Below, piece after piece: positions 14,805-36,623 of a stretch of 64,000 nt of DNA. This DNA is from Bordetella parapertussis (GTDB lineage: Bacteria; Pseudomonadota; Gammaproteobacteria; Burkholderiales; Thiobacillaceae): assembly GCA_945890495.1 (NCBI GenBank), contig CAMDCO010000005.1, positions 20,528 to 84,527 of the forward strand. The letters are read 5' to 3'. Position numbers and translations under genes: made by a program. The notes beneath the pieces were generated by a model. It did no database searches, was not told where the DNA came from, and saw nothing but the letters and a program-made list of their open reading frames with translations. How positions within the stretch are numbered: position 1 is the first letter of the stretch; every line of letters starts with the position of its first letter.

Positions 14805-14872
14805 GGCATCGCCTCGAATGAATAATGAAACCGCATTGTAAGGCACATCTGCATTATTTTGCGCGACCCGCC

Positions 14873-14955
14873 CCGGCGGCCTCGGCCGCCGTTTTTATTT
14901 CCGCTACCCGCGCGTTTGGATAGGAAAAGCAGCGAGCGCTGCGCCCACCGTCAGC
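14873..14955. repeat. Right copy of direct repeat flanking VapBC-like module
   Basis: CCGGCGGCCTCGGCCGCCGTTTTTATTTCCGCTACCCGCGCGTTT; reverse strand LTVGAALAAFPIQTRG*. Confidence 0.75.
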
Positions 14956-14979
14956 CGCATCGACGGCTTGTTACGAGCC

Positions 14980-15525
14980 TCACCCTGGTGAGGGCCGCTT
15001 GCCGAGTTTGCGTTGCAGGGTGCGGCGGTGCATCTTGAGGGCGCGGGCGGCGGCGGAGACATTGCCGCCCTGTTCGGCAAGGACGCGCTGGATGTGTTCC
15101 CACTCGACACGATCAATGCTCATCGGGGCCTCCTCAATCACGATGTCCGGCACTCCACTCAGGCGCCCGAGGGCCGCGAGGATTTCATCGGCACTGCTGG
15201 GTTTGGCCAAGTAGTGCGTAGCGCCGAGTTTGATGGCCTCGATGGCCGTGGCAATGCTGGCATAACCGGTCAGCAACAGGATACGGATCTCGGGATGTCG
15301 CTCGCGTAGCGGCGCGATCAGGCTGAGGCCGTTTCCTGGCGCGGCCTCATTGGCCAGACGCAGATCCAGCACGGCATCATCAAAGGGCTGTTGCGCGGCC
15401 AGCGCCAGGGCATCGGCCAGCGTATGGGCGGAAGTCACGCAACACCCCCGCCGGGTCAGTGCCTCGGCAAGGATCTCGGCGTATTCCTCATCATCGTCCA
15501 CCAACAACAGGCGTTGCTTCGTCAT
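14980..15525 (-). CDS. regA: RegA/PrrA/ActR-family response regulator
   Basis: Receiver domain LLLVDDDEEYAEIL..AVLDLRL; Fis-type HTH GGNVSAAARALKMHRRTLQRKLGKRP; ATGA overlap with upstream kinase. Confidence 0.88.
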   Translation of the reverse strand: MTKQRLLLVDDDEEYAEILAEALTRRGCCVTSAHTLADALALAAQQPFDDAVLDLRLANEAAPGNGLSLIAPLRERHPEIRILLLTGYASIATAIEAIKLGATHYLAKPSSADEILAALGRLSGVPDIVIEEAPMSIDRVEWEHIQRVLAEQGGNVSAAARALKMHRRTLQRKLGKRPSPG

Positions 15526-18327: not shown

Positions 18328-18406
18328 CTCGGGACCTACCTTGCACGCCATCGTTGTGCGACATTTTGCCGCACCTATCCGTTACTTTTACCTTTGGAGA
18401 CACACC

Positions 18407-20707
18407 ATGAGTATACGCATCAAGCAACTTGCACTGCTGATTGCCCTTGGAGCCGGTGCAACCAGCCCCGCGTGGGCCAGCGAAGACCTGAAAGATGTCA
18501 TGAAGCGACGCGGCCTGTCGCAACAAGACTTGCTCTCGGCGGCGAAGACCTATGTGCCGACTGGCAAGCGCGATGAATTCCTCGCCTTCAGCTCCGGCGG
18601 CCACTCCGGCCAAGTCATGGTCTACGGCATTCCTTCGATGCGCATCCTCAAATACATCGGTGTGTTCACGCCAGAGCCTTGGCAAGGCTTTGGCTTTGAC
18701 GAGGAATCCAAAAAGATTCTGCGTGATGGTCAGCCGCCCAACGCCAAGGAACCCATCCTGTGGGGCGACTCGCACCACCCGGCCATCTCTGAAACCAATG
18801 GCAAATATGACGGTCAGTTCCTGTTCATCAACGACAAGGCCAACCCACGCATCGCCGTGATTGACCTGCGCGACTTCGAGACCAAGCAGATCGTCGCCAA
18901 CCCGATTTTCAAATCCGAGCATGGCGGCGCCTTCGTCACCCCGAACACCGAGTATGTGATTGAGGCCACGCAATACGCCGCACCGCTGGAACCCAACAAA
19001 TATGTGCCGTTGGAAAGGTTCAACGACGAGTACCGCGGCGGCATGACCTTCTGGAAGTTCGACCGCAAGGCCGGTCGCATCGACAAGAAGGCCTCGTTCT
19101 CCTTCGAGCTGCCGCCGTATAGCCAGGACTTGTCTGACGCCGGCAAGGGCCCGTCCGATGGCTGGGCCTTCACCAACTCGTTCTGCTCCGAGCGTTATGT
19201 CGGCGGCATCGAACGCGGCCGCCCGCCCTTTGAGGCCGGTTGCTCCGCCCGCGATACCGACTACATGCATGTCATGAACTGGAAGAAGGCCGAGCAGGTC
19301 GTCGCCGCTGGCAAGACCAAGACCATCAATGGCCACAGAGTCATCCCGATGGATGTCGCGGTCAAAGAAGGCATCTTGTTCCTGATCCCCGAACCGAAGA
19401 GCCCGCACGGCGTCGATGTGACCCCGGACGGCAGCAAGATCATCGTCGCCGGCAAACTGGACACCCATGTGTCCGTGTATAGCTTCGACAAGATCCAGGC
19501 CGCCATCAAGGCCGGCAAGTTTGAGGGCAAAGACCCGTATGGCATCCCAATCATCGCCATGAAGGATGCGCTCGACAAGCAGGTACAACTCGGCCTAGGC
19601 CCGTTGCACACCCAGTTCGACAGCAAGAAATGCGTGGCCTACACCTCCCTGTATGTCGATTCACAAGTCGCCAAATGGGACTTCTGCGCCGGCAAGGTGC
19701 TGGACAAGATCAGCGTGCACTACAACATTGGTCACCTGATGACGATGGAAGGCGACTCCACCTCACCCGAAGGCAAGTATCTGGTGGCGCTGAACAAACT
19801 GGCCATCGACCGCTTCAACCCGGTTGGCCCGCTGCATCCGCAAAACCACCAGCTCATCGACATCAGCAACGACAAGATGCATCTGATCTACGACATGCCG
19901 GTGCCACTGGGTGAGCCGCACTACGCCGTGGCCATCGATGCCAATAGCCTGAAGCCGGGTATCCGCTACAAACTGGGCACCGACAGCCGTACCGATTCTC
20001 CGCACCCGGGCGCTGTGAAGGCCGGCTCTGAAAAGACCGTGAAGAAGGGCAACAAGGTCGAGGTGTTCGGCACCCTGATCCGTTCGCATATCGTTCCCGA
20101 GATCATCGACAATGTTGAGGTCGGCGACGAGGTCACGATCCACCTGACCAACCTCGAGCGCGCCCAGGACGAGACGCACGGCTTCACCATCGGTGGCTAC
20201 AACCTCCACGCCTCGGTTGAGCCAGGCAAGACGGTCACGGTCAAGTTCAAGGCCGAGCGTCCTGGCGTGTATCCGTACTACTGCACCGAGTTCTGCTCCG
20301 CGCTGCACTTGGAAATGCAGGGCTACCTACTGGTCAAGCCGAAGGGCTACAAAGACAGCGGCGTTGCTGGCAAGGCAGGCACGAACTACACCAAGGCAGA
20401 CTACGACAAGCAGTACAAGACCAACATCGAAACCCAAGCAGTGATCGATTCTGTGGTCGGCTACATCACCAGCGTTAACTACAAGGACTTCCCGGAAGCG
20501 GTGGCCATGGTGGAAGACGCCTTTGACCAAGCCGGTAAGATCACCGATGTGAAGGTCAAGATGGATGCCGCCGTGAAGACCGGTGACTGGAACAACGCCA
20601 CCTTGTGGGCAGGCCAGTGGTGGCAGTATCAGGTCAAGACCGCAGACCTCGGCCTGCGCGCCAAGACCTACCTAGAGCAAAACGGTGCCAAGAAAGTGAA
20701 GAAGTAA
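18407..20707 (+). CDS. nosZ: Nitrous-oxide reductase, Sec-type (clade II-like)
   Basis: Sec-like signal without twin Arg; CuA motif YPYYCTEFCSALHLEMQGYLL; DSHHPAISETNGKYDGQFLFINDKANPRIAVIDLR. Confidence 0.97.
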   Translation: MSIRIKQLALLIALGAGATSPAWASEDLKDVMKRRGLSQQDLLSAAKTYVPTGKRDEFLAFSSGGHSGQVMVYGIPSMRILKYIGVFTPEPWQGFGFDEESKKILRDGQPPNAKEPILWGDSHHPAISETNGKYDGQFLFINDKANPRIAVIDLRDFETKQIVANPIFKSEHGGAFVTPNTEYVIEATQYAAPLEPNKYVPLERFNDEYRGGMTFWKFDRKAGRIDKKASFSFELPPYSQDLSDAGKGPSDGWAFTNSFCSERYVGGIERGRPPFEAGCSARDTDYMHVMNWKKAEQVVAAGKTKTINGHRVIPMDVAVKEGILFLIPEPKSPHGVDVTPDGSKIIVAGKLDTHVSVYSFDKIQAAIKAGKFEGKDPYGIPIIAMKDALDKQVQLGLGPLHTQFDSKKCVAYTSLYVDSQVAKWDFCAGKVLDKISVHYNIGHLMTMEGDSTSPEGKYLVALNKLAIDRFNPVGPLHPQNHQLIDISNDKMHLIYDMPVPLGEPHYAVAIDANSLKPGIRYKLGTDSRTDSPHPGAVKAGSEKTVKKGNKVEVFGTLIRSHIVPEIIDNVEVGDEVTIHLTNLERAQDETHGFTIGGYNLHASVEPGKTVTVKFKAERPGVYPYYCTEFCSALHLEMQGYLLVKPKGYKDSGVAGKAGTNYTKADYDKQYKTNIETQAVIDSVVGYITSVNYKDFPEAVAMVEDAFDQAGKITDVKVKMDAAVKTGDWNNATLWAGQWWQYQVKTADLGLRAKTYLEQNGAKKVKK

Positions 20708-20726
20708 TCGCCGCTCGCCAAAAGCC

Positions 20727-20754
20727 AAGGAGGGGGGCTTATGCCCCCCTCCTT
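20727..20754. other. Perfect 12-bp hairpin between nosZ and cytochrome gene
   Basis: AAGGAGGGGGGC-TTAT-GCCCCCCTCCTT, no clear T-tract. Confidence 0.7.
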
Positions 20755-20756
20755 GA

Positions 20757-20770
20757 TTGATACGGGTCAA
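20757..20770 (+). promoter_or_regulatory. FNR/DNR-like box TTGAT-ACGG-GTCAA
   Basis: 5-4-5 FNR-type half-sites upstream of the cytochrome gene. Confidence 0.55.
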
Positions 20771-20857
20771 TATTGATTGTTGCCCAATGAATATTAGTAT
20801 TGTCTAATGTGCACGCATTCACGCGCACCGCCATTTCTTATTTACAGGAGCTTCACC

Positions 20858-21496
20858 ATGAAATTACGCCCCAGCCTATTTCTGATCCTCACCCTTGCAG
20901 CGGGTTCAGCCTTTGCCGCTCGCCCGGGCGCCTCTGCCTCTACCGATGAAATCCTCAAGCTCAAGGGCGACGCCAAGAATGGCGAAGAGGTCTATGAAGT
21001 CTGCTCCGCCTGTCACCTGCCCGATGGCATGGGCCGCTCGGACGGCACCCTGCCGGTCGTCGCCGGCCAGCATGAGAAGGTGTTGGTCAAGCAGATGATC
21101 GACATTCGCACCGGTCATCGCGACAACCCCACCATGTACCCCTTCGCCCAAGGCATGGAACCGCAGGACATCGCCGACAGCGCCGCCTACATGGCAAAAC
21201 TCAAACTCAAGACCACCAACGGCAAGGGCTCGGGCAAAGACCTGAGCCGGGGTGCCGATCTGTACAAGAAGGACTGCCTCTCCTGTCACAAGGACAATGG
21301 CGTGGGCGACCAAGCCAAATTTGTGCCCTTGCTGACGGCGCAGCATTACGAATACACCATGCGTCAGTTGGATGAGATGAAGGCAGGCAAGCGCAAGAAC
21401 GCCGACAAGGAGATGATGAAGGTCGTCAAGGCCTACTCCAAGGCCGACATGCAGGCCGTGGCCGACTACATGTCACGCCTTAAGCCTAAAAAGTAA
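20858..21496 (+). CDS. Diheme c-type cytochrome (c4/NosC-like)
   Basis: Signal peptide; CSACH and CLSCH heme motifs; between nosZ and nosB. Confidence 0.9.
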   Translation: MKLRPSLFLILTLAAGSAFAARPGASASTDEILKLKGDAKNGEEVYEVCSACHLPDGMGRSDGTLPVVAGQHEKVLVKQMIDIRTGHRDNPTMYPFAQGMEPQDIADSAAYMAKLKLKTTNGKGSGKDLSRGADLYKKDCLSCHKDNGVGDQAKFVPLLTAQHYEYTMRQLDEMKAGKRKNADKEMMKVVKAYSKADMQAVADYMSRLKPKK

Positions 21497-21628
21497 GACC
21501 CAGTGAACGGTAGGCCGCCTCGTGCGGCCTATTCGAACCCCCAACTTTCGGATCCCAATTCCCTGAGCGGGTGTCGCTCTGCACTATGATGGCGCCCTCA
21601 GAGAATTGGCATTCAACAGGAGTTTCCC

Positions 21629-22591
21629 ATGTCCAGCTTTGTTCAGGACTTTACCGGTAACAAATCCAGCCGCTTTGCCCTGATGGCACTGCTGTTACTG
21701 GCCGTCGCGTATTTCACGCCCATCTGGTGGGTCTCGCTCACCGCCCCCAACTACCCGCCCGACGCCTTCCCAGACGGGATTCGCATCCACTTCCACTTTG
21801 ACGGGGTCAAAAACGGCTGCACCCAAGCCATCATCAAAAAGAGTGAGATCTATCAGGGCGACCTAGGTAGCGAAAACGAGGCCACCGAGCGCTATCAGAA
21901 GGATCAGGCCCAACAGCTCGACTGTGTGCACGAGATGAATACCATCAACCACTATGTCGGCATGTATCCGATCGCCTCGGGCGGCCCGGTGGAAAAGGAG
22001 TTATCCAAGTACATCATGGCCTTCCTCGGCGTCATGCTGCTGGCCTTTGCCGCCAACAACCGCAAGCGCGAACTGCAAATCCTAGGCGTGGGCTTTGCGG
22101 CCGTCGCTGTCTGGATGTACGGTCAAATGCTGGGACTCGGCGCGCTTGATGCCTATGTCCAGACCTATGAAGAGGCCACGGCCACCTTCTTCAACGAGCC
22201 CGAGGTGATCACCCGCTGGAGCGCCAACCTGCGCTTGGCGATGCATGTCGTCATGGGCGGGATGCTTGCCGCCATGCTGATCGTCCTCGCCGGTTGCTGG
22301 AAGTGGCGCAAGTTTTCACTGCTACTGGCCTTTGTACCCGCCTTGCTGCCGGTCTTTTTCGTCCTCGAATACGCCGGCTGGCTGTGGTTCTTCGGCCATA
22401 ACCTGCACCCCTGGGGCGCATTCACGGTGAAGCCCTTCATGCCGACCGTGTTTGGCGAGGGGATGGTGGCGCAGTTCTCCACCTTCTCCTACCCGGATAT
22501 TGGTTACGCCCTGTTGCTGGCCCTCTCTGGTCTGCTGATCGTGGCTACCCTGCTGCGCCGCAAGCAACTGGCCCAAGACACCGCCCCCTGA
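21629..22591 (+). CDS. nosB: NosB-like membrane protein of clade II nos clusters
   Basis: Multi-TM protein; position between nosZ/cyt and nosD; IHFHFDGVKNGC loop. Confidence 0.75.
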   Translation: MSSFVQDFTGNKSSRFALMALLLLAVAYFTPIWWVSLTAPNYPPDAFPDGIRIHFHFDGVKNGCTQAIIKKSEIYQGDLGSENEATERYQKDQAQQLDCVHEMNTINHYVGMYPIASGGPVEKELSKYIMAFLGVMLLAFAANNRKRELQILGVGFAAVAVWMYGQMLGLGALDAYVQTYEEATATFFNEPEVITRWSANLRLAMHVVMGGMLAAMLIVLAGCWKWRKFSLLLAFVPALLPVFFVLEYAGWLWFFGHNLHPWGAFTVKPFMPTVFGEGMVAQFSTFSYPDIGYALLLALSGLLIVATLLRRKQLAQDTAP

Positions 22592-22602
22592 AACGGCCCG
22601 CC

Positions 22603-23949
22603 ATGCGTCGCACTCGACTCCTCGCCCTGCTCGCCATCGCCCTGATCTTGCCGGCCGGACAATCCGCGGGCTACATTGCCGCTGAGGACGCCGTACAAGA
22701 CTTCAGCGCCATGGGCGCGGTGCGCAACACCGTTGATGCCGAGCGCCCCGTGTACCCGCTCTATCTGCGCGACAAGCGCATCCATGGCCTGCAACCGTTT
22801 CAGGCGCTGGTCGATGCCGCGCCCGCCGGTTCGGTGCTGCGCCCTCCGCCGGGAATCTACGCCGGGCCGGTACTGCTAACCAAACCGCTGACCATCGAGG
22901 GCGATGGCAAGGTCACCATCGACGCCGGTGACAAGGGCGTGGTGTTCCGCATCGAGACCGAAGATGCCGTGCTGCGCGGCGTGCGCTTGACCGGCTCGGG
23001 CGAGTCGCACGACATGGAAGATGCCGCACTGGAGATTCGTGGCCATCGCAACACCGTCGAAAACCTGATCATCGACAATAGCCTGTTCGGCATCGACCTG
23101 CGCCAGGCCAACGACAACATCGTACGCAACAACCGCATCACCTCCAAGATCGCCGATCTGGGCATGCGCGGCGATGCCATCCGCCTCTGGTACAGCCTGC
23201 GCAACCGCATCGAAGGCAACCAGATCAAAGATTCACGCGATATCGTGATCTGGTATTCAAACAACAATGCCTTGATCAACAACACCAGCAGCGGCAGCCG
23301 CTACTCCATCCACTTCATGTTCGCGCAACATAATCTGGTCGAAGGCAATCGCTTCACCAACAACGCCGTCGGCATCTATGTGATGTACACGGAAGGCGTC
23401 ATCATCCGCAACAATCTGGTCTCCCACGCCACTGGAGCCACCGGGATGGGCATTGGCTTCAAGGAGGCCAGCGACTCCATTCTTGAAAACAATCAAATCA
23501 TCTATTGCGCGACGGGTATCGCCTCCGATCTATCGCCCTTCCAGCCTGACACTCAGATATGGATGCGCAACAACCGGTTAGCGTACAACGGCATCGGCCT
23601 GTTGTTTAACAGTGAACGCGAAGGCAATGTCGTCACCAACAACCGTTTTGTCGGCAACCTGACCGATGTCGCCGTCAACGGCGGCGGCACCGCCCGGCAA
23701 AACACTTGGTCGGGTAATGTGTGGGATGTGTACGAAGGCTTCGACCGCAACGGCGATGGGCGCGGCGACCTGCCCCATCGTCAATACGCCTATGCCGATC
23801 GCATCTGGATGGATACGCCCATCACCCAGTTCTTTCGTGCCTCGCCCGCACTGGAACTGCTCGACTTTCTAGAACGGCTGGCCCCGTTCTCCGAGCCCGA
23901 CTTGCTGTTTGAAGACACGCGCCCCCGCATGAGGCCCGCCCATGGCTAG
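22603..23949 (+). CDS. nosD: NosD periplasmic beta-helix copper-insertion protein
   Basis: Right-handed beta-helix repeats; YEGFDRNGDGRGDLPHRQYAYADRIWM; overlaps nosG. Confidence 0.94.
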   Translation: MRRTRLLALLAIALILPAGQSAGYIAAEDAVQDFSAMGAVRNTVDAERPVYPLYLRDKRIHGLQPFQALVDAAPAGSVLRPPPGIYAGPVLLTKPLTIEGDGKVTIDAGDKGVVFRIETEDAVLRGVRLTGSGESHDMEDAALEIRGHRNTVENLIIDNSLFGIDLRQANDNIVRNNRITSKIADLGMRGDAIRLWYSLRNRIEGNQIKDSRDIVIWYSNNNALINNTSSGSRYSIHFMFAQHNLVEGNRFTNNAVGIYVMYTEGVIIRNNLVSHATGATGMGIGFKEASDSILENNQIIYCATGIASDLSPFQPDTQIWMRNNRLAYNGIGLLFNSEREGNVVTNNRFVGNLTDVAVNGGGTARQNTWSGNVWDVYEGFDRNGDGRGDLPHRQYAYADRIWMDTPITQFFRASPALELLDFLERLAPFSEPDLLFEDTRPRMRPAHG

Positions 23950-24733
23950 AGAACCCGAACGCCGCCGCTTTCTGCGTACCGGATTAGGCCTGGCGGCCCT
24001 CTTGGGTGCCAGCGGCATCGCCTGGTTGCCCACACCCGCCGCATCCGCCAACCGCCTGCGCCCCCCCGGCGCGCTGGAAGAACAAGACTACCTGTCGGCC
24101 TGCATCAAATGTGGCCAATGCGTCCAAGTCTGCCCGGTCTCGGCCCTCAAACTCGCCGATCTCGGCGACGGCTACGGCATCGGCGCACCCTATATCGATG
24201 CCCGCGCCCAGGCCTGTGATTTTTCCTGTGACGCGGTGCAATGCATCCTCGCCTGCCCGACCGGGGCACTGACCTATCACAAGCCGACTGACCTTTCCAT
24301 CCGCACCGGCATGCCCGTCGCCCAAGCCCCGGTGCTTCTGGCCAAGAAAAAAGACCCTGAACCAACGCTGAACCTGAAGGAGCGCATGGGCGTTGCCGTG
24401 CTGACCCGACCCGATGCCTGCCTTGCCCGTCAGGGCAAAGGCCATAAAGGGCCGGCGCGGGCCGCAGGGTTCGCCGGGCACCTGCGCTTCATGGAGGTGG
24501 ATCGCTGGAAACCGATCCCGCTCAACGATCACCCGTTTGCGGTGGAGATCTGCGACCTGTGCGTACAAACCTGTCCGATCGAGGGCGCGATCCGCCTGGT
24601 TCCCATGGCTAACGGAGGCATGACCCCGGAAGTGCTGGAACCCTGTCTGGGCTGCGGCGTGTGCGAGATGGCCTGCCCCACCGAGCCGGCCTCTATTGAA
24701 ATCAAGCCGCGCCAAGGGTGGCCACATGCATAA
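23942..24733 (+). CDS. nosG: NosG (NapG-like) Tat-exported 4x[4Fe-4S] ferredoxin
   Basis: RRRFLRTGLG twin-Arg signal; CIKCGQCVQVCP, CDLCVQTCP, CLGCGVCEMACP. Confidence 0.9.
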   Translation: MAREPERRRFLRTGLGLAALLGASGIAWLPTPAASANRLRPPGALEEQDYLSACIKCGQCVQVCPVSALKLADLGDGYGIGAPYIDARAQACDFSCDAVQCILACPTGALTYHKPTDLSIRTGMPVAQAPVLLAKKKDPEPTLNLKERMGVAVLTRPDACLARQGKGHKGPARAAGFAGHLRFMEVDRWKPIPLNDHPFAVEICDLCVQTCPIEGAIRLVPMANGGMTPEVLEPCLGCGVCEMACPTEPASIEIKPRQGWPHA

Positions 24734-25697
24734 CCGCTTCAGCGAATCTTGGCGGCAGTTGCTGGGCTACGCGCCGCGCAGGCCCGTGGCCGGACAGCAA
24801 AGGCCCGAGGCACAGGTCATTCACCGCACGAAGCGAGAAGATGTCAATCGCGTCGCAGAACTAAAGGCGCACCGCGCCACGCTCGTGCACTCGAACACAT
24901 GGCGCAACCGCCGTTGGGTCGTTCTGATCCTCACCAACCTGCTGTTCGTGGCCTCCTTCTGGCTCGACATCCAGTTGCTGGAAGGCTCGCTCACCGCCTC
25001 GCGCTTCCTCGGCTTTCACATGATCGACCTCAACGCCGCCCTGCAAGTGGCGTTGGCGCACAAACACATCCCCATCAACCTGATCATCGGCACCGTCACC
25101 ATTCTCCTGTTCTGGGCCTTGCTGGGGGGGCGAGCGTTTTGTTCCTGGGTGTGTCCGTACCACCTGCTCGCCGAATGGACCGAACGGCTGCATCTCGCGC
25201 TGGCCGAGCGCAAGGTCGTCTCTGACCACAGCTTCCACCGTGGCCTGCGTACCGTATTGTGGCTGCTGTTTGCCATCCTGGCCTTCATCAGCGGCTATAC
25301 CGTGTTCGAAACCCTGTCGCCCACAGGCATCCTGTCGCGCGCCCTGATCTACGGGCCTGGCCTAGGGTTGGCCTGGGTCTTATTGCTACTGCTGTTCGAA
25401 GTCGCCTACTCACGCCGCGCCTGGTGCCGCTATTTCTGCCCCATCGGCCTCACCTATGGCGCGGTGGGCAGCGTCTCCCCGCTACAGATCGGCTATCACC
25501 TCGACAGTTGTTTCCACGAAGGCGATTGCCGCAAGGTCTGTCTGGTGCCGCATGTGCTCGATTGCGTCATCAAAGGCCGCGCCAGCGACACCCATGTCAA
25601 CCTCGGCGCCGACTGCACCCGCTGCGGTCTATGCGTCGATACCTGTCCCACCGGCTCGTTGCGCTTTGAAATACGCGGCCTGCAAAACCTGTTGTAG
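24726..25697 (+). CDS. nosH: NosH (NapH-like) membrane ferredoxin
   Basis: TM helices; SWVCPYHLLAEW, CRYFCPIGL, CTRCGLCVDTCP; start chosen at internal Met. Confidence 0.88.
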   Translation: MHNRFSESWRQLLGYAPRRPVAGQQRPEAQVIHRTKREDVNRVAELKAHRATLVHSNTWRNRRWVVLILTNLLFVASFWLDIQLLEGSLTASRFLGFHMIDLNAALQVALAHKHIPINLIIGTVTILLFWALLGGRAFCSWVCPYHLLAEWTERLHLALAERKVVSDHSFHRGLRTVLWLLFAILAFISGYTVFETLSPTGILSRALIYGPGLGLAWVLLLLLFEVAYSRRAWCRYFCPIGLTYGAVGSVSPLQIGYHLDSCFHEGDCRKVCLVPHVLDCVIKGRASDTHVNLGADCTRCGLCVDTCPTGSLRFEIRGLQNLL

Positions 25698-25719
25698 GCC
25701 TGTAGTAAAGTCACCCCCC

Positions 25720-26577
25720 ATGATCGAACTCAAACAACTCTCCAAACACTTCCGCAAAAGCCGCGTCCTCGATGGCATCGACCTCACGGTGGCCGATGGC
25801 GAACGCATCGCCCTGATCGGTTCCAACGGGGCCGGAAAGACCACCCTGATCCGCTGCCTGCTGGGGGAATATATCCACGAAGGCACGGTGCTCATTAGGG
25901 GCATCGATCCGCGCCAAGATCGTGCCCGCGTCCTGCGCGAGATTGGCTTCGTGCCACAGTTGCCGCCGCCGCTGCGCATGTCGGTACACGAGCTGCTGCG
26001 CTTTACCAGCGAGCTGACCGATACCCCCGTTTCCGCCATGACCGCCATTGCCGCCCGTTTAGGGCTAGATCTCGCTCGCGCCGAACACCTGCCTTTCGCC
26101 AAGTTATCGGGCGGTCAAAAACAAAAGGTGCTGATTGCCCTGGCGCTAGGCCGTCCTTGCTCGCTCTTGATTCTGGACGAGCCGGCCGCCAACCTCGACC
26201 CTGAAGCGCGGCACGCCTTTTTTGACCTGCTGGCCGAACAGGTCGCCGCGCGCCCCATCACCCTGCTCATCTCCAGCCATCGCCTCGACGAAGTGGCGCC
26301 GCTGGTTAACCGCGTAGTGGAAATGGACATGGGTCGCATCGTCCTCGACGACAGCGTAGCCGACAGCGTGGCCCTGGACGGCAAACTCAGCGCGCGCCTT
26401 GTCCTGTCCCGCGCCGAACCGGCCATCGCCCGTGCGCTGGGCCAATGGGGACTGACCGCAGACGCGGCGGGCCTCGCTTGGGAGGGCGTCATCGCCAGCC
26501 CCGACCGTCTGCGCTTCATCGGCATGCTATCGCGCTATGTCGGCCTGATCCACAGCGTCTCCATCGAGGAGCTGTGA
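25720..26577 (+). CDS. nosF: NosF copper-processing ABC transporter ATPase
   Basis: GSNGAGKTTLIRCLLG, LSGGQKQKVLIALAL, LLILDEPAANLDPEA. Confidence 0.92.
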   Translation: MIELKQLSKHFRKSRVLDGIDLTVADGERIALIGSNGAGKTTLIRCLLGEYIHEGTVLIRGIDPRQDRARVLREIGFVPQLPPPLRMSVHELLRFTSELTDTPVSAMTAIAARLGLDLARAEHLPFAKLSGGQKQKVLIALALGRPCSLLILDEPAANLDPEARHAFFDLLAEQVAARPITLLISSHRLDEVAPLVNRVVEMDMGRIVLDDSVADSVALDGKLSARLVLSRAEPAIARALGQWGLTADAAGLAWEGVIASPDRLRFIGMLSRYVGLIHSVSIEEL

Positions 26578-26582
26578 GCCCC

Positions 26583-27086
26583 ATGAACCGCCGCGAACTA
26601 TTGCTGGGTTGCGCCGCCATCCCCGTGCTCTGGCTGACCGGCTGTGGCGAGAAGGATGCCGGGCACGGCCCTGGCAAGATTCATTGGGATCGCGACACCT
26701 GCGTGCGCTGCAACATGATTATCAGCGACCGCCGCTTTGCCGCGCAGATTCGTGGCGGCGAGATGGGCGGCGAGATGGGCGGCGAGATGGGCGGCAAGAA
26801 GGGCGGCAAGACGGGAGTTGGCAAACGCAAGCTCTACAAGTTCGACGATATCGGCTGCGCGCTGTTCTGGCTCAAGGAACAAAAAATCCCTTGGGCGGAC
26901 GCGCCTGACACCGAGATCTGGGTGACCGACGCCAAAACCGGGGAGTGGCTGGAGGCCCGCACGGCACATTACATCGCCGGGAAGACCACGCCCATGCTCT
27001 ACGGCTACGGTGCGCTGCGTGAGCCGGTGGCCGGCAGTGTCGATTTTAAAACCATGAAGGCGGCCATTCTGGCCAAGGGACGCTAA
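26583..27086 (+). CDS. nosL: NosL copper chaperone lipoprotein with Gly/Met repeat insertion
   Basis: Lipobox LTGCG; CVRCNMIISDRRFAAQI...KLYKFDDIGCALFWL. Confidence 0.93.
   Translation: MNRRELLLGCAAIPVLWLTGCGEKDAGHGPGKIHWDRDTCVRCNMIISDRRFAAQIRGGEMGGEMGGEMGGKKGGKTGVGKRKLYKFDDIGCALFWLKEQKIPWADAPDTEIWVTDAKTGEWLEARTAHYIAGKTTPMLYGYGALREPVAGSVDFKTMKAAILAKGR
26754..26813. repeat. 5 x 12-bp tandem repeat inside nosL
   Basis: (GGCGGCGAGATG)x3, GGCGGCAAGAAG, GGCGGCAAGACG. Confidence 0.95.
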
Positions 27087-27928
27087 TGTTTAATGACCTT
27101 AAAACCAGCCTCAAACCCGCACTGCGCCTAGAGATGACCGAATCCCTGCGGGCGCGCTGGTTCATGCTCTACGCCTTGGTATTCGGCGGCATCGTCGCCT
27201 TGCTGTTCGCCTTCGGTCTGACCGAATCGCGCATCCTGGGCTTCATCGGCCTGTCGCGCCTCCTGGTCACCTATATCCAATTGGTGATGGCCATCCTGCC
27301 GGTGTTTGTGCTGATCTCCACCGTACGATCCATCGCCGGTGACCGCGAGGCGGGCGTGTTCGAATACCTGCTGTCACTACCGGTTTCGCTGGCCGGCTGG
27401 TTCTGGGGCAAGTTTATCGGCCGTTACCTGATGGTCTTCGCGCCCGTGTTTGCCGCCATGCTGGGCGCCGTGCTGTGGGCGCTGATTACTGCGATCGAAG
27501 TGCCGTGGGACATCTTCCTGTATTACACCGCCCTTCTGGCCAGCCTGTCGCTCTGCTTCCTCGGCATCGCCATGCTGATCTCGGTACTGGCCCGTTCGTC
27601 CGACATCGCCCAGGGCGTCGCCTTTCTGGTCTGGCTGTTCCTGCTCCTGTTCCTCGACCTCATCCTGCTCGGCGTGCTGATCCAGGAACAAATCCCGTCC
27701 GAGATCGCCATCACCATCGCCCTCTTCAACCCCCTGCAAACCTTCCGCACCGCCGCCCTGATGCTGTTCGACCCGCAACTCATCGTTCTGGGCCCGGCCG
27801 CCTTCGTACTGTTCGACCTGTTCGGCACCCTCGGCTACAAGATCTTCGCGCTGCTCTACCCGGCGACCATCGGACTTGTGTGCGCCTTCTTGGCCTATCG
27901 CAGCTTTAAACGCGGAGACCTGCTATGA
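27086..27928 (+). CDS. nosY: NosY ABC transporter permease
   Basis: Six TM-type segments; GDREAGVFEYLLSLPVS; follows nosL. Confidence 0.9.
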   Translation: MFNDLKTSLKPALRLEMTESLRARWFMLYALVFGGIVALLFAFGLTESRILGFIGLSRLLVTYIQLVMAILPVFVLISTVRSIAGDREAGVFEYLLSLPVSLAGWFWGKFIGRYLMVFAPVFAAMLGAVLWALITAIEVPWDIFLYYTALLASLSLCFLGIAMLISVLARSSDIAQGVAFLVWLFLLLFLDLILLGVLIQEQIPSEIAITIALFNPLQTFRTAALMLFDPQLIVLGPAAFVLFDLFGTLGYKIFALLYPATIGLVCAFLAYRSFKRGDLL

Positions 27929-28422
27929 AATTAACCCTGAAACGCGGCCTGGCCCTCTTGGGTCTGTGCCTATTCCCCAGTCTGTTCCCCAGCCTGGCGC
28001 TCGCCCTGAATCTGTATGAACAACCGGGCCTGCAATTCGCCCGCCCCGATGCCGCGCCGCTCGATCTAACCAGCCTGCGCGGCAAGCCCGCCGTCATCAA
28101 CTTCTGGGCCACCTGGTGCCCGCCTTGTCGCGACGAACTACCCGAACTGGCGGCCCTGCATAGCAAAACCGGTGCGACCTTCGTTGGCATCGCGGTAGAA
28201 GACAACCTGAAATTCGCCGCCGAATTCGCCCGCGTTGAAGATGTCGTCTATCCCATCGCCGGCGGAAGAGACACGGCCATTGCCTTGATGAAAACCTTGG
28301 GCAACACCTATGCAGTAATGCCCTTCACCGTGTTGATCGACGCTAACGGCGAGGTGCTCTGGGCGCGCAAGGGACGCATCCCCATGGACGAACTCGAGCA
28401 GCGCCTGCGGGATCTGCGTTGA
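27925..28422 (+). CDS. TlpA-like periplasmic thioredoxin
   Basis: Signal peptide; INFWATWCPPCRDELPEL. Confidence 0.9.
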   Translation: MKLTLKRGLALLGLCLFPSLFPSLALALNLYEQPGLQFARPDAAPLDLTSLRGKPAVINFWATWCPPCRDELPELAALHSKTGATFVGIAVEDNLKFAAEFARVEDVVYPIAGGRDTAIALMKTLGNTYAVMPFTVLIDANGEVLWARKGRIPMDELEQRLRDLR

Positions 28423-28443
28423 GACCGTGTTGAGCCACAGGCC

Positions 28444-29658
28444 ATGCCCGTCTGGCCGCTCCTGCTCTGCCTGCTGATCGCGCCTGCCGCAGCGAGTCCG
28501 TTACCCCCCCTGCAACCCTTGCTCGATGCCGCCCCGCCGCACGCCATTCTCAAACTCGGCCCCGGCTGCTACGCCGGCCCCGCCGTCATTCGCAAGCCGC
28601 TGACCCTGGACGGCGGCGGCCGAGCCTGCATCGACAACAACGGGCGCGGCACCATACTAACCGTGCTGGCCGCCGACACCGTCATCCGTGGCCTGCGCCT
28701 GACCGGATCGGGAGAGAGCTTCGACGCCATGGACGCCGGTATCTTGGTCGAGGCCGACCGCGTGCGCATCGAGGACAACCGCATCGAGGCTGTGTTGTTC
28801 GGCATCCACCTCAAGGCGGCCAATGACGCGCGGATCCTGCGCAACACCGTGCGCGGCCAACCCGCGCCGCTCAACCTGCGCGGCGACGCAGTGCGTATCT
28901 GGTACGGCCATGGCAATCGCATCGAGGCCAACGATTTCGCCGGCCTGCGCGACATCACCCTGGCCAACGCCCCGGGCAACCAGATTCGTAAAAACCGTAT
29001 CCGCGCGGGGCGCTACGCCATCCATCTAATCTTCTCGCCTAACAACGCCATCCTCGACAACGACATCGCCCACACCACCACGGGCATCGCCGTGCTGTAT
29101 TCAGACAACGCCCGCATTGAGGGCAACCGCATCCACCATGTCCGCTCCGAGGCCGGGGCCGCGCTGGCCCTCAAAGAAACGAACGGCACGCAGATTCGCC
29201 GCAACGAGATCCTGCATTGCGCCGTGGGTCTGCAAGCCAACTCACCGCTCTACGGCCACGACACCCTCCAGATTGAAGGCAACCGCTTTGCCCACAACGA
29301 CACCGCGCTGTACTTTTATGGCGACAATGGCGGCCATGTGCTGCGTCACAACCGCTTCGAAAAGAATCTCACCCCCTTGATGGTCAGCCATGCCAACGCC
29401 ACGCGCGGCCATGTCTGGGAAGACAACGCTTGGGACGACTACGAAGGTTTCGACCGCAACGGCGACGGTATCGGCGACACCCCGCATGAACTCTGGCTGT
29501 ACGCCGACCGCATCTGGATGGAAACCCCCAGCACCCGTTTCTTTCGCAACAGCCCTGGCATGGAACTGCTCGACTTCCTTGAACGACTCGCCCCTTTTTC
29601 CGCCCCTGAGCGCCTGCTTCAGGACCCCCGCCCCCGGATAACACGGCAGGCACCATGA
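28444..29658 (+). CDS. Second NosD-like beta-helix protein
   Basis: Same architecture as 22603-23949; YEGFDRNGDGIGDTPHELWLYADRIWMETP, GMELLDFLERLAPFSAPERLL. Confidence 0.9.
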   Translation: MPVWPLLLCLLIAPAAASPLPPLQPLLDAAPPHAILKLGPGCYAGPAVIRKPLTLDGGGRACIDNNGRGTILTVLAADTVIRGLRLTGSGESFDAMDAGILVEADRVRIEDNRIEAVLFGIHLKAANDARILRNTVRGQPAPLNLRGDAVRIWYGHGNRIEANDFAGLRDITLANAPGNQIRKNRIRAGRYAIHLIFSPNNAILDNDIAHTTTGIAVLYSDNARIEGNRIHHVRSEAGAALALKETNGTQIRRNEILHCAVGLQANSPLYGHDTLQIEGNRFAHNDTALYFYGDNGGHVLRHNRFEKNLTPLMVSHANATRGHVWEDNAWDDYEGFDRNGDGIGDTPHELWLYADRIWMETPSTRFFRNSPGMELLDFLERLAPFSAPERLLQDPRPRITRQAP

Positions 29659-30563
29659 GCGTCCACACCCCGCCGACGCGCTGGCAAATCGTCCAGGCTG
29701 CTATCCGTCCCCAGACCCTGTCACTGACCGCAACGCCGATCCTGGTCGGGATCAGCCTGGCCTGGGCTGAGGGCGCCACACCCCACGGCGGGATTGCGCT
29801 GGCGACCTTGCTAACCGCTGGGCTCATCCAGATCGGCGTCAACCTGCACAACGATGCGACCGATCACCTGCGCGGCAACGACACCGCCGCACGCATCGGC
29901 CCGTTACGCGTCACCGCCGCAGGTTGGGCCAGCGCAAAGGCGGTGTTGCGCGCGGCCTATCTCAGCCTCGGTCTGGCCTTTATGCTGGGCATCAGCTTGG
30001 CCCTAGCTGGCGGCCCGGTCATCGTCGCCATCGGAATCGCCTCCCTGCTGGCGGCGCTGGCCTATTCCGGCGGACCCCGACCGCTGTCCCATAGCGCCCT
30101 CGGCGAGTTATTCGTCTGGGCCTTCTTCGGCCTTGCCGCTGTCGCAGGGAGTCACTGGCTGCAAGCCGGACAGTTTTCCGCCGCCGCGTTAATCGCCGGG
30201 GCTGCGCTCGGCCTACCCGCCGCTGCCGTCCTCTTGGTCAACAACCTGCGCGACATCGACACCGACGCCATCGCCGGTCGCCGCACCCTCGCCGCCCGAC
30301 TCGGCGAGGCACACAGCCGTCGCCTGCATACCGTGCTGATGCTCACCCCCTTTCTATCTCTACCCTTCCTGGCCGCCCACCTCCATGCGCTGTGGCCCGG
30401 GTTGGCCCTGCTGGCGCTACCCGCCTGCCTGCGAGTCAGCGCCCGTATGCAGCACACCACGGGCCCGGCCCTGAACGCAGTTCTTGCCGACACCGCACGC
30501 GCCCAATTACAGTTCGGCTGTCTGCTATCCATAGCGTATCTGCTCATCCTTCTCCTGCCATGA
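29655..30563 (+). CDS. menA: 1,4-dihydroxy-2-naphthoate polyprenyltransferase
   Basis: UbiA-family [14 protein letters not shown] and [22 protein letters not shown]. Confidence 0.92.
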
Positions 30564-31390
30564 CCTCCTTCGCCTGGATCCCCGCCGCCGAGTTCACCGA
30601 CATTCGCTACGAGTTGTCCGGTGACGGCATCGCCAAGATTTCCATCAACCGCCCCGAACGACGCAACGCCTTCCGGCCCGAAACCGTAAACGAGCTGATG
30701 GACGCCTTTTCGCGGGCTCATCGCGACCCCGCCGTCGGTGTGATCATCTTCACCGGCGTCGGCGATCAGGCCTTCTGTTCCGGGGGCGACCAAACGGTGC
30801 GTGGCGACGATGGTGGCTATCACGATGCCGCGACCGACACACCGCACCTCAATGTGCTCGACCTGCAAATGCAGATTCGCCGCTTACCCAAACCCGTCGT
30901 GGCGATGGTCGCGGGCTATGCCATCGGCGGTGGCCATGTACTACACCTCGTTTGCGACCTGACCCTCGCCGCCGACAACGCCCGTTTCGGCCAGACCGGC
31001 CCGCGCGTCGGCAGTTTTGATGCGGGCCTCGGTGCCGGCCTGATGGCGCGCGCCATTGGCCTTAAACGGGCCAAAGAAATTTGGCTGCTGTGCCGCCAGT
31101 ACGATGCACAAACGGCCCTGGACTGGGGCCTGGTCAACGCCGTCGTGCCACTTGCCCAATTAGAAGAAGAAACGGTGGCTTGGTGCCGCGAGATGTTGCA
31201 ACTCTCGCCCACCGCACTGCGCCTGATCAAGGCCGGTTTCAACGCCGATAGCGACGGACTGGCCGGCATTCAGGAGTTGGCCGGCAATGCCACAGGGCTC
31301 TTTTACATGACCGCCGAGGGGCGGGAAGGGCGCGATGCCTGGCTAGAAAAACGCCCGCCAGACTTCACAAAATACCGTCGCCGCCCCTAG
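30560..31390 (+). CDS. menB: 1,4-dihydroxy-2-naphthoyl-CoA synthase
   Basis: Crotonase fold; [54 protein letters not shown]. Confidence 0.95.
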
Positions 31391-31397
31391 CAGCCCC

Positions 31398-32399
31398 ATG
31401 TCGGCGCGCGTCCTTCCCTACTGCCTACCCCTCGTGCGCCCTTGGGTCGCGGCCTCCGTGACCCTCACCGAGCGGCGCGGCTGGCTGATTGCGCTCGATG
31501 AAGACGGGCTCACCGGATGGGGCGATTGCGCACCGCTCCCCTCCGCCCACAGCGAGATGCCCTGCCGCACCGCGCTGGCGCACCTGGCGGCCACCGGCAC
31601 ACTTCCGCCAGATGCGCCGCCAGAGACCCTCTGGGCACTAGATACCGCACGGCATGACCTTGACGCGCAACGACAAGGGATTCCGCTCGCACGCGCCCTT
31701 GCCCCGGATGCAGCGTCAGAGATCGCCGTCAATGCCGCGCTCGGGACGCTGGATGCGGGTTGTGTGGAACGCGCCCATACCGCCCGAATGCAAGGGTTCC
31801 GCATCGCCAAGATCAAGGTCGGCCTCGCCCCCATCGCGGAAGAGTTGGCCCATTTGGGCGAAATTGCCGCCGTCTTTGGTGGGCGGCTAAGGCTCGACGC
31901 CAACCGCGCATGGCCCGAGGCCGCAGCGCGACGCTTCCTGACGGCCATCGCCGATCTACCCATCGATGCCGTTGAAGAGCCCTTGGCACACCCCTCTCCC
32001 CATACGCTTGCTGCATTGCAGGCGGCCTTACCCTACGCCCTCGCCGTTGATGAATCCCTGCCCAGCCTCGGTATCCGTGCGCTGATCGACACCCGTGCCG
32101 TCCGCCGTCTCGTGCTCAAGCCGGCGCGTCTGGGCCGCTTCGCGGCAACACACGCCATCGCCCGACAGGCTCAAGCCGCCGGCATCGAGATCGTCCTCAC
32201 CTCGGTCATCGATTCGGCCATCGGCGTCGCCGCTGCCGCGCATCTGGCCGCCGCACTCGCGCCCAACGAAACCCACGGGCTGGGCACCTGTGCGTGGCTG
32301 GCGGCCGATGTCGCCACCGCACCGCCCATCGTAGACGGCAGAATGGCCTTGCCGCAGTGCCCCGGGCTGTGTATCCAGCCCCACAAAGACCCCGCCTAA
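31398..32399 (+). CDS. menC: o-Succinylbenzoate synthase
   Basis: Enolase-superfamily: FRIAKIKVG, LRLDANRAW, VEEPLAHP, AVDES, LKPARLGR. Confidence 0.93.
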   Translation: MSARVLPYCLPLVRPWVAASVTLTERRGWLIALDEDGLTGWGDCAPLPSAHSEMPCRTALAHLAATGTLPPDAPPETLWALDTARHDLDAQRQGIPLARALAPDAASEIAVNAALGTLDAGCVERAHTARMQGFRIAKIKVGLAPIAEELAHLGEIAAVFGGRLRLDANRAWPEAAARRFLTAIADLPIDAVEEPLAHPSPHTLAALQAALPYALAVDESLPSLGIRALIDTRAVRRLVLKPARLGRFAATHAIARQAQAAGIEIVLTSVIDSAIGVAAAAHLAAALAPNETHGLGTCAWLAADVATAPPIVDGRMALPQCPGLCIQPHKDPA

Positions 32400-32400
32400 G

Positions 32401-34959
32401 ATGCCAACCTTACCGATCGTCCAAGCCTGGGTTCGCCGCATGCCTGCAAACGCCACCGCCCTGATCCTGCCCAATGGCGAAACGCGGCGTTTTGGCGACT
32501 GGGCCCCACAGCAAGACGGCCTGCGCCTACTCCATGGCGATACGACAAGCCTTGCGTGCGGCCTCATTGACGCCGCCCTCAGCGGCGACACGGCCTTTCC
32601 TTTGCCGCCCGGCATCCAGCCCGAACAACGGCACTTACTGGTCACCCTGGCCCAGGCCGCTGCGACGCCAAAACTGGCGCTCATCATCGCCACCAGCGGC
32701 TCGAGCGGCCAACCCAAAGGCGTGCGTCTCTCTTGGCGCGCCATCGCCGCCGCCAGCCGCATGAGCGCCCGGGCGCTAAACTTGCAGCGCGGCGATGCCT
32801 GGCTGGTCTGCCTGCCGCTCTATCACATCGGCGGCGCCATGATCCTGTACCGCTGCCTACGCGCCGGGGCCACGGCCGTGGTGCATGACGGCTTTAATGT
32901 TGCGGCCATCGCGCGTGACCTTACCGTGCAACGCATCACTCACCTGTCACTCGTACCCGCGATGCTCGCCAAACTCCTGGAGGCGGGCGTTCAACCGGTA
33001 CCCACATTGAAATGCGTCTTGGTCGGCGGTGCAGCGCTTAATGACACGCTACGAGAACAGGCCCGCGCAGCCGGTTGGCCCATCCGCACAAGCTGGGGCA
33101 TGAGCGAGACCAGCGCGATGATTACGCTCGACGGTCGACCCCTGCCCGGCGTGAGGCTGCGCGTCGCCCAAACAGGCGTGCTCGAGGTCGCCACTCCAGC
33201 CCGCATGACCGGCTATCTGAGTGAAGCGGATATAAACGAATGGGTCACGACACACGACCTAGGGCACCTCGATGCCGAGGGCCGAGTACACATCCTGGGC
33301 CGCGCCGATGCGATGTTGATTTCCGGCGGCGAGAACATCCATCCCCTTGAAGTTGAGGCACTACTGACCGCATGCCCAGGCCTGCGTGAGGTCGGCATCA
33401 CGGGGCTGCATGACCCCGCCTGGGGCGACATCGTCGCCTGTGCCTACCGTGGAGAGATTACGGAAACGGCCCTGGCCGACTGGTGTCGCGCCCATATCCC
33501 CGCTGCCCGTCGTCCCCGCCGTTTTCTGCGCCTCGGTCACTTGCCACACTTGGCCAATGGCAAGCTCGACCGCTGCGCACTGCCAAAACTATGGCCGCTC
33601 CATCATGACGCGGAAAACCTGGTGGACTGGACATGGGTGGCGAACGAGCTAGAACGACTCGCGCGGACGGCCGGAGAGGCCCAACTGTTAAGCGTCACGC
33701 TGCCGCTCTCCCGCTGGCCGGTCGCCGCACGACTCACCCCCACCGACGGCATTTTCTGGCAACGGCCCGATGCGGGCCTACGGATGCTGGGCATGGGTCG
33801 TGCCTGCCACTTCACCAGCACCGGCACTGGCCGCTTTGCGGCGCTACAAGCCGCGCATCGGGGCCTCATGGAATCGTTGCGCTACACCCCAAACACCCCA
33901 CCCCCCCTAGCCTTCACCGGCTTCGCCTTTGCCCCCCACGGCGGTGCGCCGCTGCCTAACACAGCCCTCTGGGTGCCCGAGCTATTGCTGCGCGAACACG
34001 CCGGAAAAATCTGGCTAACCCTATCGTATGCCGTCTCTCATTTCCGCCATGCCATGCACCGCTGGCAAGCGCAATGGCAGGCCTTGCAGGCCAAAGACAC
34101 CTTAGGGAAAAACGAGGCCACCCAGGCGCGCTGCGCAATGCTCGATGCCCAACCCAACCCCATCACAGACGCCCTGTTCCGGGCGCGTGGCCGGGTCGCG
34201 CTGGAGGCCATCACGCAAGGCCTCGTAGACAAGCTGGTGTTGACCCGCACGCTGCATCTCGACAGTGGCATGCCCATCCCCCCTGACGCGATCCTCACCA
34301 CACTCGCTGCACAGCAGCCCAACTGCGCCATCTATGGCGTTAGCCAGGAAGGCCGTGTGTTTCTCGGCGCATCGCCAGAAACCCTGCTGACCTTGCGTGG
34401 CGATCAGGTCAGCGCAGACGCGCTGGCTGGTACGGCTTGGCACGAGGCCGCGCTGCCCTTGAGTGCCCACAAAAATCACCGCGAGCACGACTTTGTCGCC
34501 CACGCCATCGCCCAAGCCTTGGCCCCTCTGTGTCTGGATTTACGCATCCCTGCCACCCCCGAAGTCATGCAACTCCATGGCCTGAGCCATCTACGACGCC
34601 GCGTCACGGCACAACGACAACCGACCACTTCGGCCTTCGATCTCATCGCCCGCTTACATCCCACCTCAGCCGTCGGCGGCGTTCCCCGCGAGGCCGCACT
34701 CGACTGGCTGGCACACCAAGGCGATGTACGCAGCGCGTGGTACACCGGCGGCGTCGGCTGGATTGATGCCCGCGGCGATTGCGACATCGCCGTCGCCCTG
34801 CGTTGTGGTCTATTTGAAGGCAGCGCAATAACCCTGTACGCCGGTGCCGGTTTTGTCGCCGGCTCCGTCGTCGAGCAGGAGTTCGCCGAGACCGAGGCCA
34901 AATTTCATACCCTGCGCGAGGCCATCGCCTGCGCGTGCAAAGAGAGGGCACCCGCATGA
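32401..34959 (+). CDS. MenE-MenF fusion: o-succinylbenzoate-CoA ligase plus isochorismate synthase
   Basis: N-terminal AMP-binding IIATSGSSGQPKGVRLSW and GMSETSAMITLDGRP; C-terminal chorismate-binding GASPETLLTLRGDQVSADALAGTA, LHPTSAVGGVPREAALDWL, YTGGVGWIDARGDCDIAVALRC; single ORF. Confidence 0.93.
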   Translation: MPTLPIVQAWVRRMPANATALILPNGETRRFGDWAPQQDGLRLLHGDTTSLACGLIDAALSGDTAFPLPPGIQPEQRHLLVTLAQAAATPKLALIIATSGSSGQPKGVRLSWRAIAAASRMSARALNLQRGDAWLVCLPLYHIGGAMILYRCLRAGATAVVHDGFNVAAIARDLTVQRITHLSLVPAMLAKLLEAGVQPVPTLKCVLVGGAALNDTLREQARAAGWPIRTSWGMSETSAMITLDGRPLPGVRLRVAQTGVLEVATPARMTGYLSEADINEWVTTHDLGHLDAEGRVHILGRADAMLISGGENIHPLEVEALLTACPGLREVGITGLHDPAWGDIVACAYRGEITETALADWCRAHIPAARRPRRFLRLGHLPHLANGKLDRCALPKLWPLHHDAENLVDWTWVANELERLARTAGEAQLLSVTLPLSRWPVAARLTPTDGIFWQRPDAGLRMLGMGRACHFTSTGTGRFAALQAAHRGLMESLRYTPNTPPPLAFTGFAFAPHGGAPLPNTALWVPELLLREHAGKIWLTLSYAVSHFRHAMHRWQAQWQALQAKDTLGKNEATQARCAMLDAQPNPITDALFRARGRVALEAITQGLVDKLVLTRTLHLDSGMPIPPDAILTTLAAQQPNCAIYGVSQEGRVFLGASPETLLTLRGDQVSADALAGTAWHEAALPLSAHKNHREHDFVAHAIAQALAPLCLDLRIPATPEVMQLHGLSHLRRRVTAQRQPTTSAFDLIARLHPTSAVGGVPREAALDWLAHQGDVRSAWYTGGVGWIDARGDCDIAVALRCGLFEGSAITLYAGAGFVAGSVVEQEFAETEAKFHTLREAIACACKERAPA

Positions 34960-36623
34960 ACACCGCCACACTCAACCTCGCTTGGGCTGATGCCTTCATC
35001 GCCGCCCTAACGGCCGCCGGGTTGCGCCATATTGTGCTCGCCCCCGGCGCCCGTTCGGCCCCCTTGGCGGTTGCCGCCTTGCGTCGCCCGGAGTTGACCT
35101 GCCATGTCATCAGCGACGAACGCGCGGCGGGTTATTTTGGCCTCGGCCTGGCCCGCATCACGCGCACACCGGCCGCCGTGATCTGCACCTCAGGTACCGC
35201 CGCCGCCAACCTGCTGCCCGCCGTCATGGAGGCCACCCTGGCCGCCGTGCCCCTGCTCATCCTCAGCGCCGACCGGCCGCCCGAGGCGCACGGCTGGGGA
35301 AGCAACCAAACCGCCGACCAACTCAAGCTGTATGGCGACCAGGTCCGACGCTTTGTGGCATTACCTGTGCCCTTTGTCCGCGAAGAGGGCAGCCTCGATC
35401 TTCGCTTCCTAAACACCCTCGCCGCTCAACTGATCGAGGCCTGTGTGTCACCGCACCCCGGCCCAGTACACGCCAATCAGCCCTTTCGGGAACCGCTGCT
35501 ACCCATCGACCCCGCCGCCATCCCGCCCGCACCCAACCTGCCCATGTCCGTCACGATTCACGCCCCGGTGCCGCAAGCAGCCTCCGGGATTGAGGCTGTG
35601 GCAGCGCGGTTATCCGGACGACCCGGCGTTATCGTCTGCGGTGAGGGTGACTATCCCGAGACCTTCGCCGCAGCACTCGTCGCATTGGCCGAAAAACTGG
35701 GCGCACCCATCTTGGCCGAACCGCTCTCCAACCTGCGTTTTGGGCCGCATGACCGCCGCCTCGTCCTAGCCCGTGCATCCCGCTTCTTGCGCCGCACCGA
35801 CCTGCCCCAACCCGAATGGGTGCTGCGGCTAGGCCGTTTTCCCGTCTCGCGTACATTGGAACGCTGGCTCAGCGGTCTGGAACACACGCTGCACCTCCTG
35901 ATCGCCCCACCGGGCCCCTGGCCAGACCCGCTCCAGCGCAGCGACATTATCCTGCGCGGCGATGCTTGGGCCACCGTCACAGCCCTGCACGCCGCCCCCA
36001 CAGCAAGCGCCCCCGCAGGTTGGCTTTCCACCTGGCAGGCCCAGGAGATCGACGCCGCCCAGCACGCCGACCTCTGCCATGATGGCCACGCGTTTGCGCA
36101 GGCCGTCAGCACCCTGATTGCGGCGCTACCTGCAAAGGCCGCTCTATTCGTCGGCAATTCATTGTCGATTCGCGCGGTAGATTCATTCTCCGGCACCGAT
36201 GCCAAGCCCATCGCCCTGTACGGCAATCGCGGCGCCTCGGGTATCGACGGCAATATCGCCACCGCCGCCGGGATCGCCGCCGCCAGCGGCGCGCCCATGG
36301 CCGTATTGATAGGCGATCAAACCGCCCTGCACGACTGCGGCAGCTTGGCCTTACTGGCCGGTCGGCCCGTGGTCATCATCGTCGTGGACAATGGCGGCGG
36401 CGGCATCTTCGAACAACTGGCCTTCAGTGCGGCCTTGCCACGCGCGCTTTTGACACGCGGCTTTATTGCGCCGCCCCAAGTTGATTTCGCCGCGCTGGCC
36501 GCCGCGTTTGGGCTGTCGTATGCCGAGACCGGTGATACACAGCGGCTTCAGCCCCTGCTGGATCAGGCCTTTACCAGCGGCCAGCCGTGGCTCATCCGAC
36601 TCGCGCTCAAATCAAGCGCGTAA
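34956..36623 (+). CDS. menD: SEPHCHC synthase (ThDP enzyme)
   Basis: VLAPGARSAPLAVAA, CTSGTAAANLLPAVMEA, LSADRPPEAHGWGSNQTADQ, GNRGASGIDGNIATAAGIA; ATGA overlap with menEF. Confidence 0.95.
   Translation: MNTATLNLAWADAFIAALTAAGLRHIVLAPGARSAPLAVAALRRPELTCHVISDERAAGYFGLGLARITRTPAAVICTSGTAAANLLPAVMEATLAAVPLLILSADRPPEAHGWGSNQTADQLKLYGDQVRRFVALPVPFVREEGSLDLRFLNTLAAQLIEACVSPHPGPVHANQPFREPLLPIDPAAIPPAPNLPMSVTIHAPVPQAASGIEAVAARLSGRPGVIVCGEGDYPETFAAALVALAEKLGAPILAEPLSNLRFGPHDRRLVLARASRFLRRTDLPQPEWVLRLGRFPVSRTLERWLSGLEHTLHLLIAPPGPWPDPLQRSDIILRGDAWATVTALHAAPTASAPAGWLSTWQAQEIDAAQHADLCHDGHAFAQAVSTLIAALPAKAALFVGNSLSIRAVDSFSGTDAKPIALYGNRGASGIDGNIATAAGIAAASGAPMAVLIGDQTALHDCGSLALLAGRPVVIIVVDNGGGGIFEQLAFSAALPRALLTRGFIAPPQVDFAALAAAFGLSYAETGDTQRLQPLLDQAFTSGQPWLIRLALKSSA

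Follow-up and report, generated by a model that had tools for sequence, protein, structure and literature searches.

The window, as we call the whole 64-kb stretch of DNA analysed, derives from one metagenome-assembled genome of an uncultured betaproteobacterium. On it, a complete men operon follows a clade II nos cluster (18398-36623 together), the two being joined by a 4-nt overlap between the second nosD gene (nosD2) and menA. The operon, menA-menB-menC-(menE-menF)-menD (29655-36623), is compact, with overlaps of 4 nt or gaps of 1-7 nt between neighbours, and its menE and menF parts form one gene. No other 7-kb stretch of the window is as rich in G+C as the men stretch. The features at the locus are as follows:

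18398-29658, + strand: clade II (Sec-dependent) nos cluster (nosZ, cytochrome c, nosB, nosD, nosG, nosH, nosF, nosL, nosY, tlpA, second nosD), directly upstream of the men operon
29655-30563, + strand: menA (DHNA polyprenyltransferase), overlapping nosD2 by 4 nt
30560-31390, + strand: menB (DHNA-CoA synthase)
31398-32399, + strand: menC (o-succinylbenzoate synthase)
32401-34959, + strand: fused menE-menF gene, one open frame of 852 aa with two enzyme families
32401-33594, + strand: MenE half (o-succinylbenzoate--CoA ligase), residues 1-398, best matches to MenE
33595-33621, + strand: linker PLHHDAENL, residues 399-407, of low confidence in the model
33622-33624, + strand: in-frame GTG (V408), candidate internal MenF start, at the position where MenF of relatives begins
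33622-34956, + strand: MenF half (isochorismate synthase), residues 408-852, by profile, fold and catalytic residues
34956-36623, + strand: menD (SEPHCHC synthase), overlapping the fusion by 4 nt

The fused gene runs from an ATG to a TGA with 0 internal stops, which confirms the uninterrupted 852-aa frame described by the initial annotation, and the fused MenE-MenF frame is a real observation. Pfam domains are found in the order AMP-binding (residues 90-251), AMP-binding_C (317-388) and Chorismate_bind (594-834). The split between the two halves had been correctly placed at about residue 400 (~33600) and can now be refined, with MenE ending at about residue 398 (33594) and MenF starting at V408/D409 (33622), where the fusion reads V408-D-W at the position matching the M-(I)-D-W with which separate MenF proteins begin. 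The description of the middle part (~33600-34150) as the variable N-terminus of MenF holds for 33622-34150. An out-of-frame ATGA occurs at 33605-33608, within the linker region of the fusion.

The C-terminal half scores 250.9 bits against the NCBIfam isochorismate synthase model TIGR00543, over the cut-off of 224.75. The residues equivalent to K190, E240, E284, E416 and R387 of E. coli MenF are all present as K611, E660, E695, E830 and R801, and comprise the general base lysine (K611), the general acid glutamate (E660) and the two Mg2+-binding glutamates (E695, E830). Foldseek matched this half to the MenF structure 2eua, separately from the match of the N-terminal half to MenE, and the catalytic and metal-binding roles of the aligned MenE and MenF residues are established enzyme knowledge.

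As for the N-terminal half, the best ligase model by E-value is that of MenE, NCBIfam TIGR01923, but the score of 246.6 bits remains under the cut-off of 330.15, owing to an adenylation domain with a shortened N-terminus and one reduced loop. The MenE of the nearest relative (G056) shows the same shortening. A reduced N-terminal region is likewise found in the short MenE of NCBIfam PRK07824 (362 aa), which matches residues 57-397 of the fusion, although the fusion scores under the cut-off of that model too and MenE proteins of this type are stand-alone. The MenE models falling short of their cut-offs would speak for some other acyl-CoA ligase in place of an o-succinylbenzoate ligase, in which case the protein would not be MenE-MenF at all. 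This reading is nevertheless extremely improbable, since the best profile, the best solved structures and the best folds all belong to MenE (top Foldseek matches of the predicted model, 5x8g and 5x8f, E 1.6e-34), and the gene sits between menC and menF, with 57-60% identity of this half to the ligases at the equivalent place in other genomes. The context is that of a MenE, with menA, menB and menC upstream and menD downstream. The half also contains the motifs of adenylating enzymes, namely the P-loop (98-106, T98-K106) and the A5 motif GMSE (233-236, with E236), together with D286, R301, the catalytic lysine K388 and, in the o-succinylbenzoate site, the arginine R151; T142, R195, D336, R350 and K437 of E. 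coli MenE thus have their equivalents in T98, R151, D286, R301 and K388, the retained R195 equivalent also arguing against another ligase. The assignment of the two halves as acyl-CoA ligase and isochorismate synthase, that is MenE-MenF, which the initial annotation had proposed, is therefore supported by profiles, solved structures and folds.

An AlphaFold2 model of the fusion, run on an alignment of relatives, has a mean pLDDT of 91.3 and a pTM of 0.65, with a disordered stretch of low confidence at residues 400-405. The pTM value and the linker disorder point to two confidently predicted rigid domains whose mutual orientation is undefined. Two predicted domains carrying the catalytic residues of both enzymes are what this structural check of the active sites returned, and the intact residues in both contradict the possibility, raised earlier, of a catalytically dead half. 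Moreover, either half diverges mainly at third codon positions (0.53-0.55, versus 0.24-0.38 at positions 1 and 2), an excess indicating that MenE and MenF are both under constraint. Altogether, from sequence and model, both halves look complete. In the searched genome, which is 80.8% complete, no second isochorismate synthase or recognisable MenE was found: the other chorismate enzymes are PabB and TrpE, and the remaining ligase matches are not MenE. The fused gene would then probably supply both activities, if the organism makes menaquinone. In the same genome, menH was not detected, with only a BioH-like match, and genomes with the Men pathway often lack MenH (PMC6189191).

By catalytic residues, profile and fold, the two enzymes are the same as those of E. 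coli K-12, where they are encoded by separate genes in the order menF-menD-menH-menB-menC-menE; the fusion differs in being one chain with MenE first, in the shorter N-terminal part of MenE and in the undetected menH. A wider survey of the phylogenetic distribution, as had been suggested, found the fusion in one genome, with the pairs of relatives separate at 24 loci. Strong MenE/MenF matches were present in 28 others among 399 genomes of the order, chiefly in families f15 and f21, none of them fused. No second fused copy was found among 60 relatives, the 399 order genomes, 399 genomes of the phylum, GTDB genome contigs and plasmids, all of which yielded genes that were adjacent, separate or single, nor was a MenE-MenF fusion found described in the open-access literature searched. 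Two genomes with long open frames around their MenF matches (G786, G707) were inspected and rejected, these being high-GC open frames and not MenE fusions. All 25 loci examined, including those of Rhodocyclus gracilis, R. purpureus and a Rhodocyclaceae MAG, have menE followed by menF with an intervening stop, and 24 of them are clean cases, menE being only partly matched in the 25th (the Rhodocyclaceae MAG, L086). The pairs in Rhodocyclus, the Rhodocyclaceae MAG and families f15 and f21 share order and strand with the window, are usually followed by menD and often lie beside a clade II nos cluster; unlike the window gene, they are always separated by a stop. In most f15 genomes of genus g26 (not G097) a TAG stands shortly upstream of menF, while the three nearest relatives (G056, G183, G219) have a 4-nt overlap of the ATGA type, with menE and menF in different frames. 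In a tree of MenE plus MenF, the window groups with G056 (92%) and G219 (100%), inside family f21. To judge by the sequences searched so far, the MenE-MenF fusion appears unique and lineage-specific.

A fusion seen in one genome only, whose relatives carry two separate genes, calls for considering an error of assembly. The loss of one base near 33562-33605 could have joined a real menE ending at TGA 33606, which lies in the +2 frame, to a menF starting at GTG 33622, and a single base would restore the split. Against this, the large genes of the window that were examined are open at full length and its nos genes can be aligned with those of congeners over almost their entire length, which shows that indel errors are rare, and the homopolymers at the junction do not exceed 4 bases. 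We infer a rate of one-base artefacts at the junction of a few percent at most, so that this explanation appears very unlikely. Mis-binning of the contig was considered as well and rejected: its ArgS is 84-93% identical to that of four congeners and its NosZ 93-94% to that of two, and synteny with one congener (G004), at ~80% nucleotide identity, extends over the nos cluster and either flank of the men operon.

The reading that we favour, and consider probable, is that of a genuine lineage-specific fusion encoding a bifunctional MenE-MenF protein, which arose from the merging of adjacent genes in a compact operon. The adjacency of menE and menF in the same order, separated by stops in 24 loci, makes the merging of neighbours a sufficient explanation. 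In the proposed course of events, a compact menA-B-C-E-F-D operon was probably acquired beside the nos cluster, in which the ancestral menE and menF would have lain in different frames with a shared ATGA, the arrangement seen in the three nearest relatives; a single recent indel near the end of menE, upstream of the ATGA, would then have merged both frames. The ATGA at 33605-33608 is possibly, judging from its sequence and place, a relic of that ancestral overlap. Ribosomes would run through the linker of eight or nine residues into MenF, and the product would be one chain of ~93 kDa with two independent active sites, each half presumably folding and working alone. The only expected consequences would be 1:1 synthesis and co-localisation, and the fusion may well be near-neutral.

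An internal start yielding separate proteins had been named by the initial annotation as an objection to a fusion protein, and in part this concern stands, as a candidate GTG lies at 33622, exactly at the start of MenF. Free MenF could thus be made from this codon besides the full-length fusion, in line with the alignment of V408-D-W with the starts of separate MenF proteins and with the fact that menE, menC and menA in this operon likewise start without strong ribosome-binding sites. On the other hand, only a weak GGA lies upstream of the GTG and there is no stop codon nearby for coupled re-initiation, and we regard such dual translation as unlikely, one chain from one frame being the preferred product.

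The positions of the two enzymes in the pathway bear on why they might be joined. MenF converts chorismate to isochorismate in the first step of menaquinone synthesis, and MenE converts o-succinylbenzoate to o-succinylbenzoyl-CoA in the fifth, the reactions of MenD, MenH and MenC being the three steps in between. The earlier remark that these steps are non-consecutive, and channelling therefore no obvious explanation, is borne out by this order, since channelling is unsupported where three reactions intervene. The accompanying idea of a role in stoichiometry or flux control fared less well, as no positive evidence for it emerged and the 24 stop-separated adjacent pairs make simple merging sufficient: 1:1 synthesis of MenE and MenF follows automatically from the fusion, and any adaptive benefit of that stoichiometry is hypothetical. 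An adaptive fusion would couple the entry flux through MenF to MenE, or dock the two enzymes, along with MenD and MenC, in a metabolon. The gathering of the men genes in one tight operon could be cited in its favour, as could the plant protein PHYLLO of the phylloquinone pathway, a MenF-MenD-MenC-MenH fusion (PMC6189191) that, like the window gene, joins enzymes of the menaquinone/phylloquinone pathway including MenF. However, PHYLLO is eukaryotic and plastid-targeted, lacks MenE and joins different partners acting at early, nearly consecutive steps, whereas MenE and MenF are non-consecutive and the window protein has MenE and MenF domains only. Neither a second fused lineage that would serve as convergent evidence nor any sign of a fixed domain interface in the model (pTM 0.65) was found, and adaptation is accordingly a most improbable reason for the fusion. 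A functional fusion produced by chance merging of neighbours is the most likely interpretation.

The congener G004 bears on the history of the operon itself: there, the site of 29655-36623 lacks the men operon and holds a single different MenA-like gene instead. This gene (L138:2647-3609) encodes a UbiA prenyltransferase of 320 aa, overlaps the end of nosD2 and is 33% identical to the window MenA; relatives of it, at 60-69% identity, are spread through the family even though searches there found no MenB, MenE/MenF or MqnC. MenE/MenF was found in no other genome of the same genus or family tested, MenB was absent from the same-family genomes tested, and MqnC, marker of the futalosine pathway, was absent from this genome and from the same-genus and same-family genomes searched. 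The simplest reading is a gain of the men operon in this lineage by horizontal transfer, which is consistent with the repeated transfers of the Men pathway within Pseudomonadota (PMC11707229), its loss in sister lineages being the alternative.

Among 22 genomes with a menE-menF pair, about 13 have nos genes within 20 kb, and in about a dozen genomes of families f15 and f21 the nos cluster has men genes at its flanks or within it. In family f15, menE-F-D come after nosY at one end, and menB is found past nosZ at the opposite end, at a distance of a few kb, while the f21 genomes G056, G183 and G219 have menA-B-C and E-F-D after nosY/tlpA, with nosD2 located after menD in G056 and G183. Such a linkage was not found described in the open-access literature searched, and it is not obligatory, since some genomes of the same family (G007, G025) have nos clusters that lack men genes. 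The window NosZ, at 910 bits against 625 for the Sec-dependent model, is of the clade II type. Feeding of N2O reduction by menaquinol is a reasonable hypothesis because NosG and NosH resemble the quinol dehydrogenase subunits of the NapG/NapH type.

Some further observations concern the same DNA. The nos cluster contains two NosD paralogues (22603-23949 and 28444-29658), the second directly before menA, and a NosL-like protein (26577-27086) with an in-frame tandem repeat (GGEMGGEMGGEMGGKKGGKTG) in the middle of the protein. G056 carries two tandem nosZ copies (L142:9051-11333 and 13764-15980), both ~80% identical to the window NosZ. Elsewhere in the window, 8332-9597 encodes a 421-aa protein that begins with a long repeat region rich in Ala, Lys and Pro; the sequence after this region looks, by eye, DksA/TraR-like.

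The fusion offers a clean natural case of adjacent operon genes merging despite the non-consecutive steps that they encode, with channelling an unlikely reason, and a single-gene tool for asking whether a 1:1 ratio of MenE to MenF matters. The broader proposal of an undescribed bifunctional MenE-MenF, fixed in one betaproteobacterial lineage and linking the entry and CoA-activation steps within a mobile men plus clade II nos locus, is in our view rather doubtful. The fusion alone is of modest interest, and its men-nos context may matter more: in two families, as in the window, men genes are joined to clade II nos genes or interleaved with them, which suggests that the supply of menaquinone and the reduction of N2O can travel jointly.
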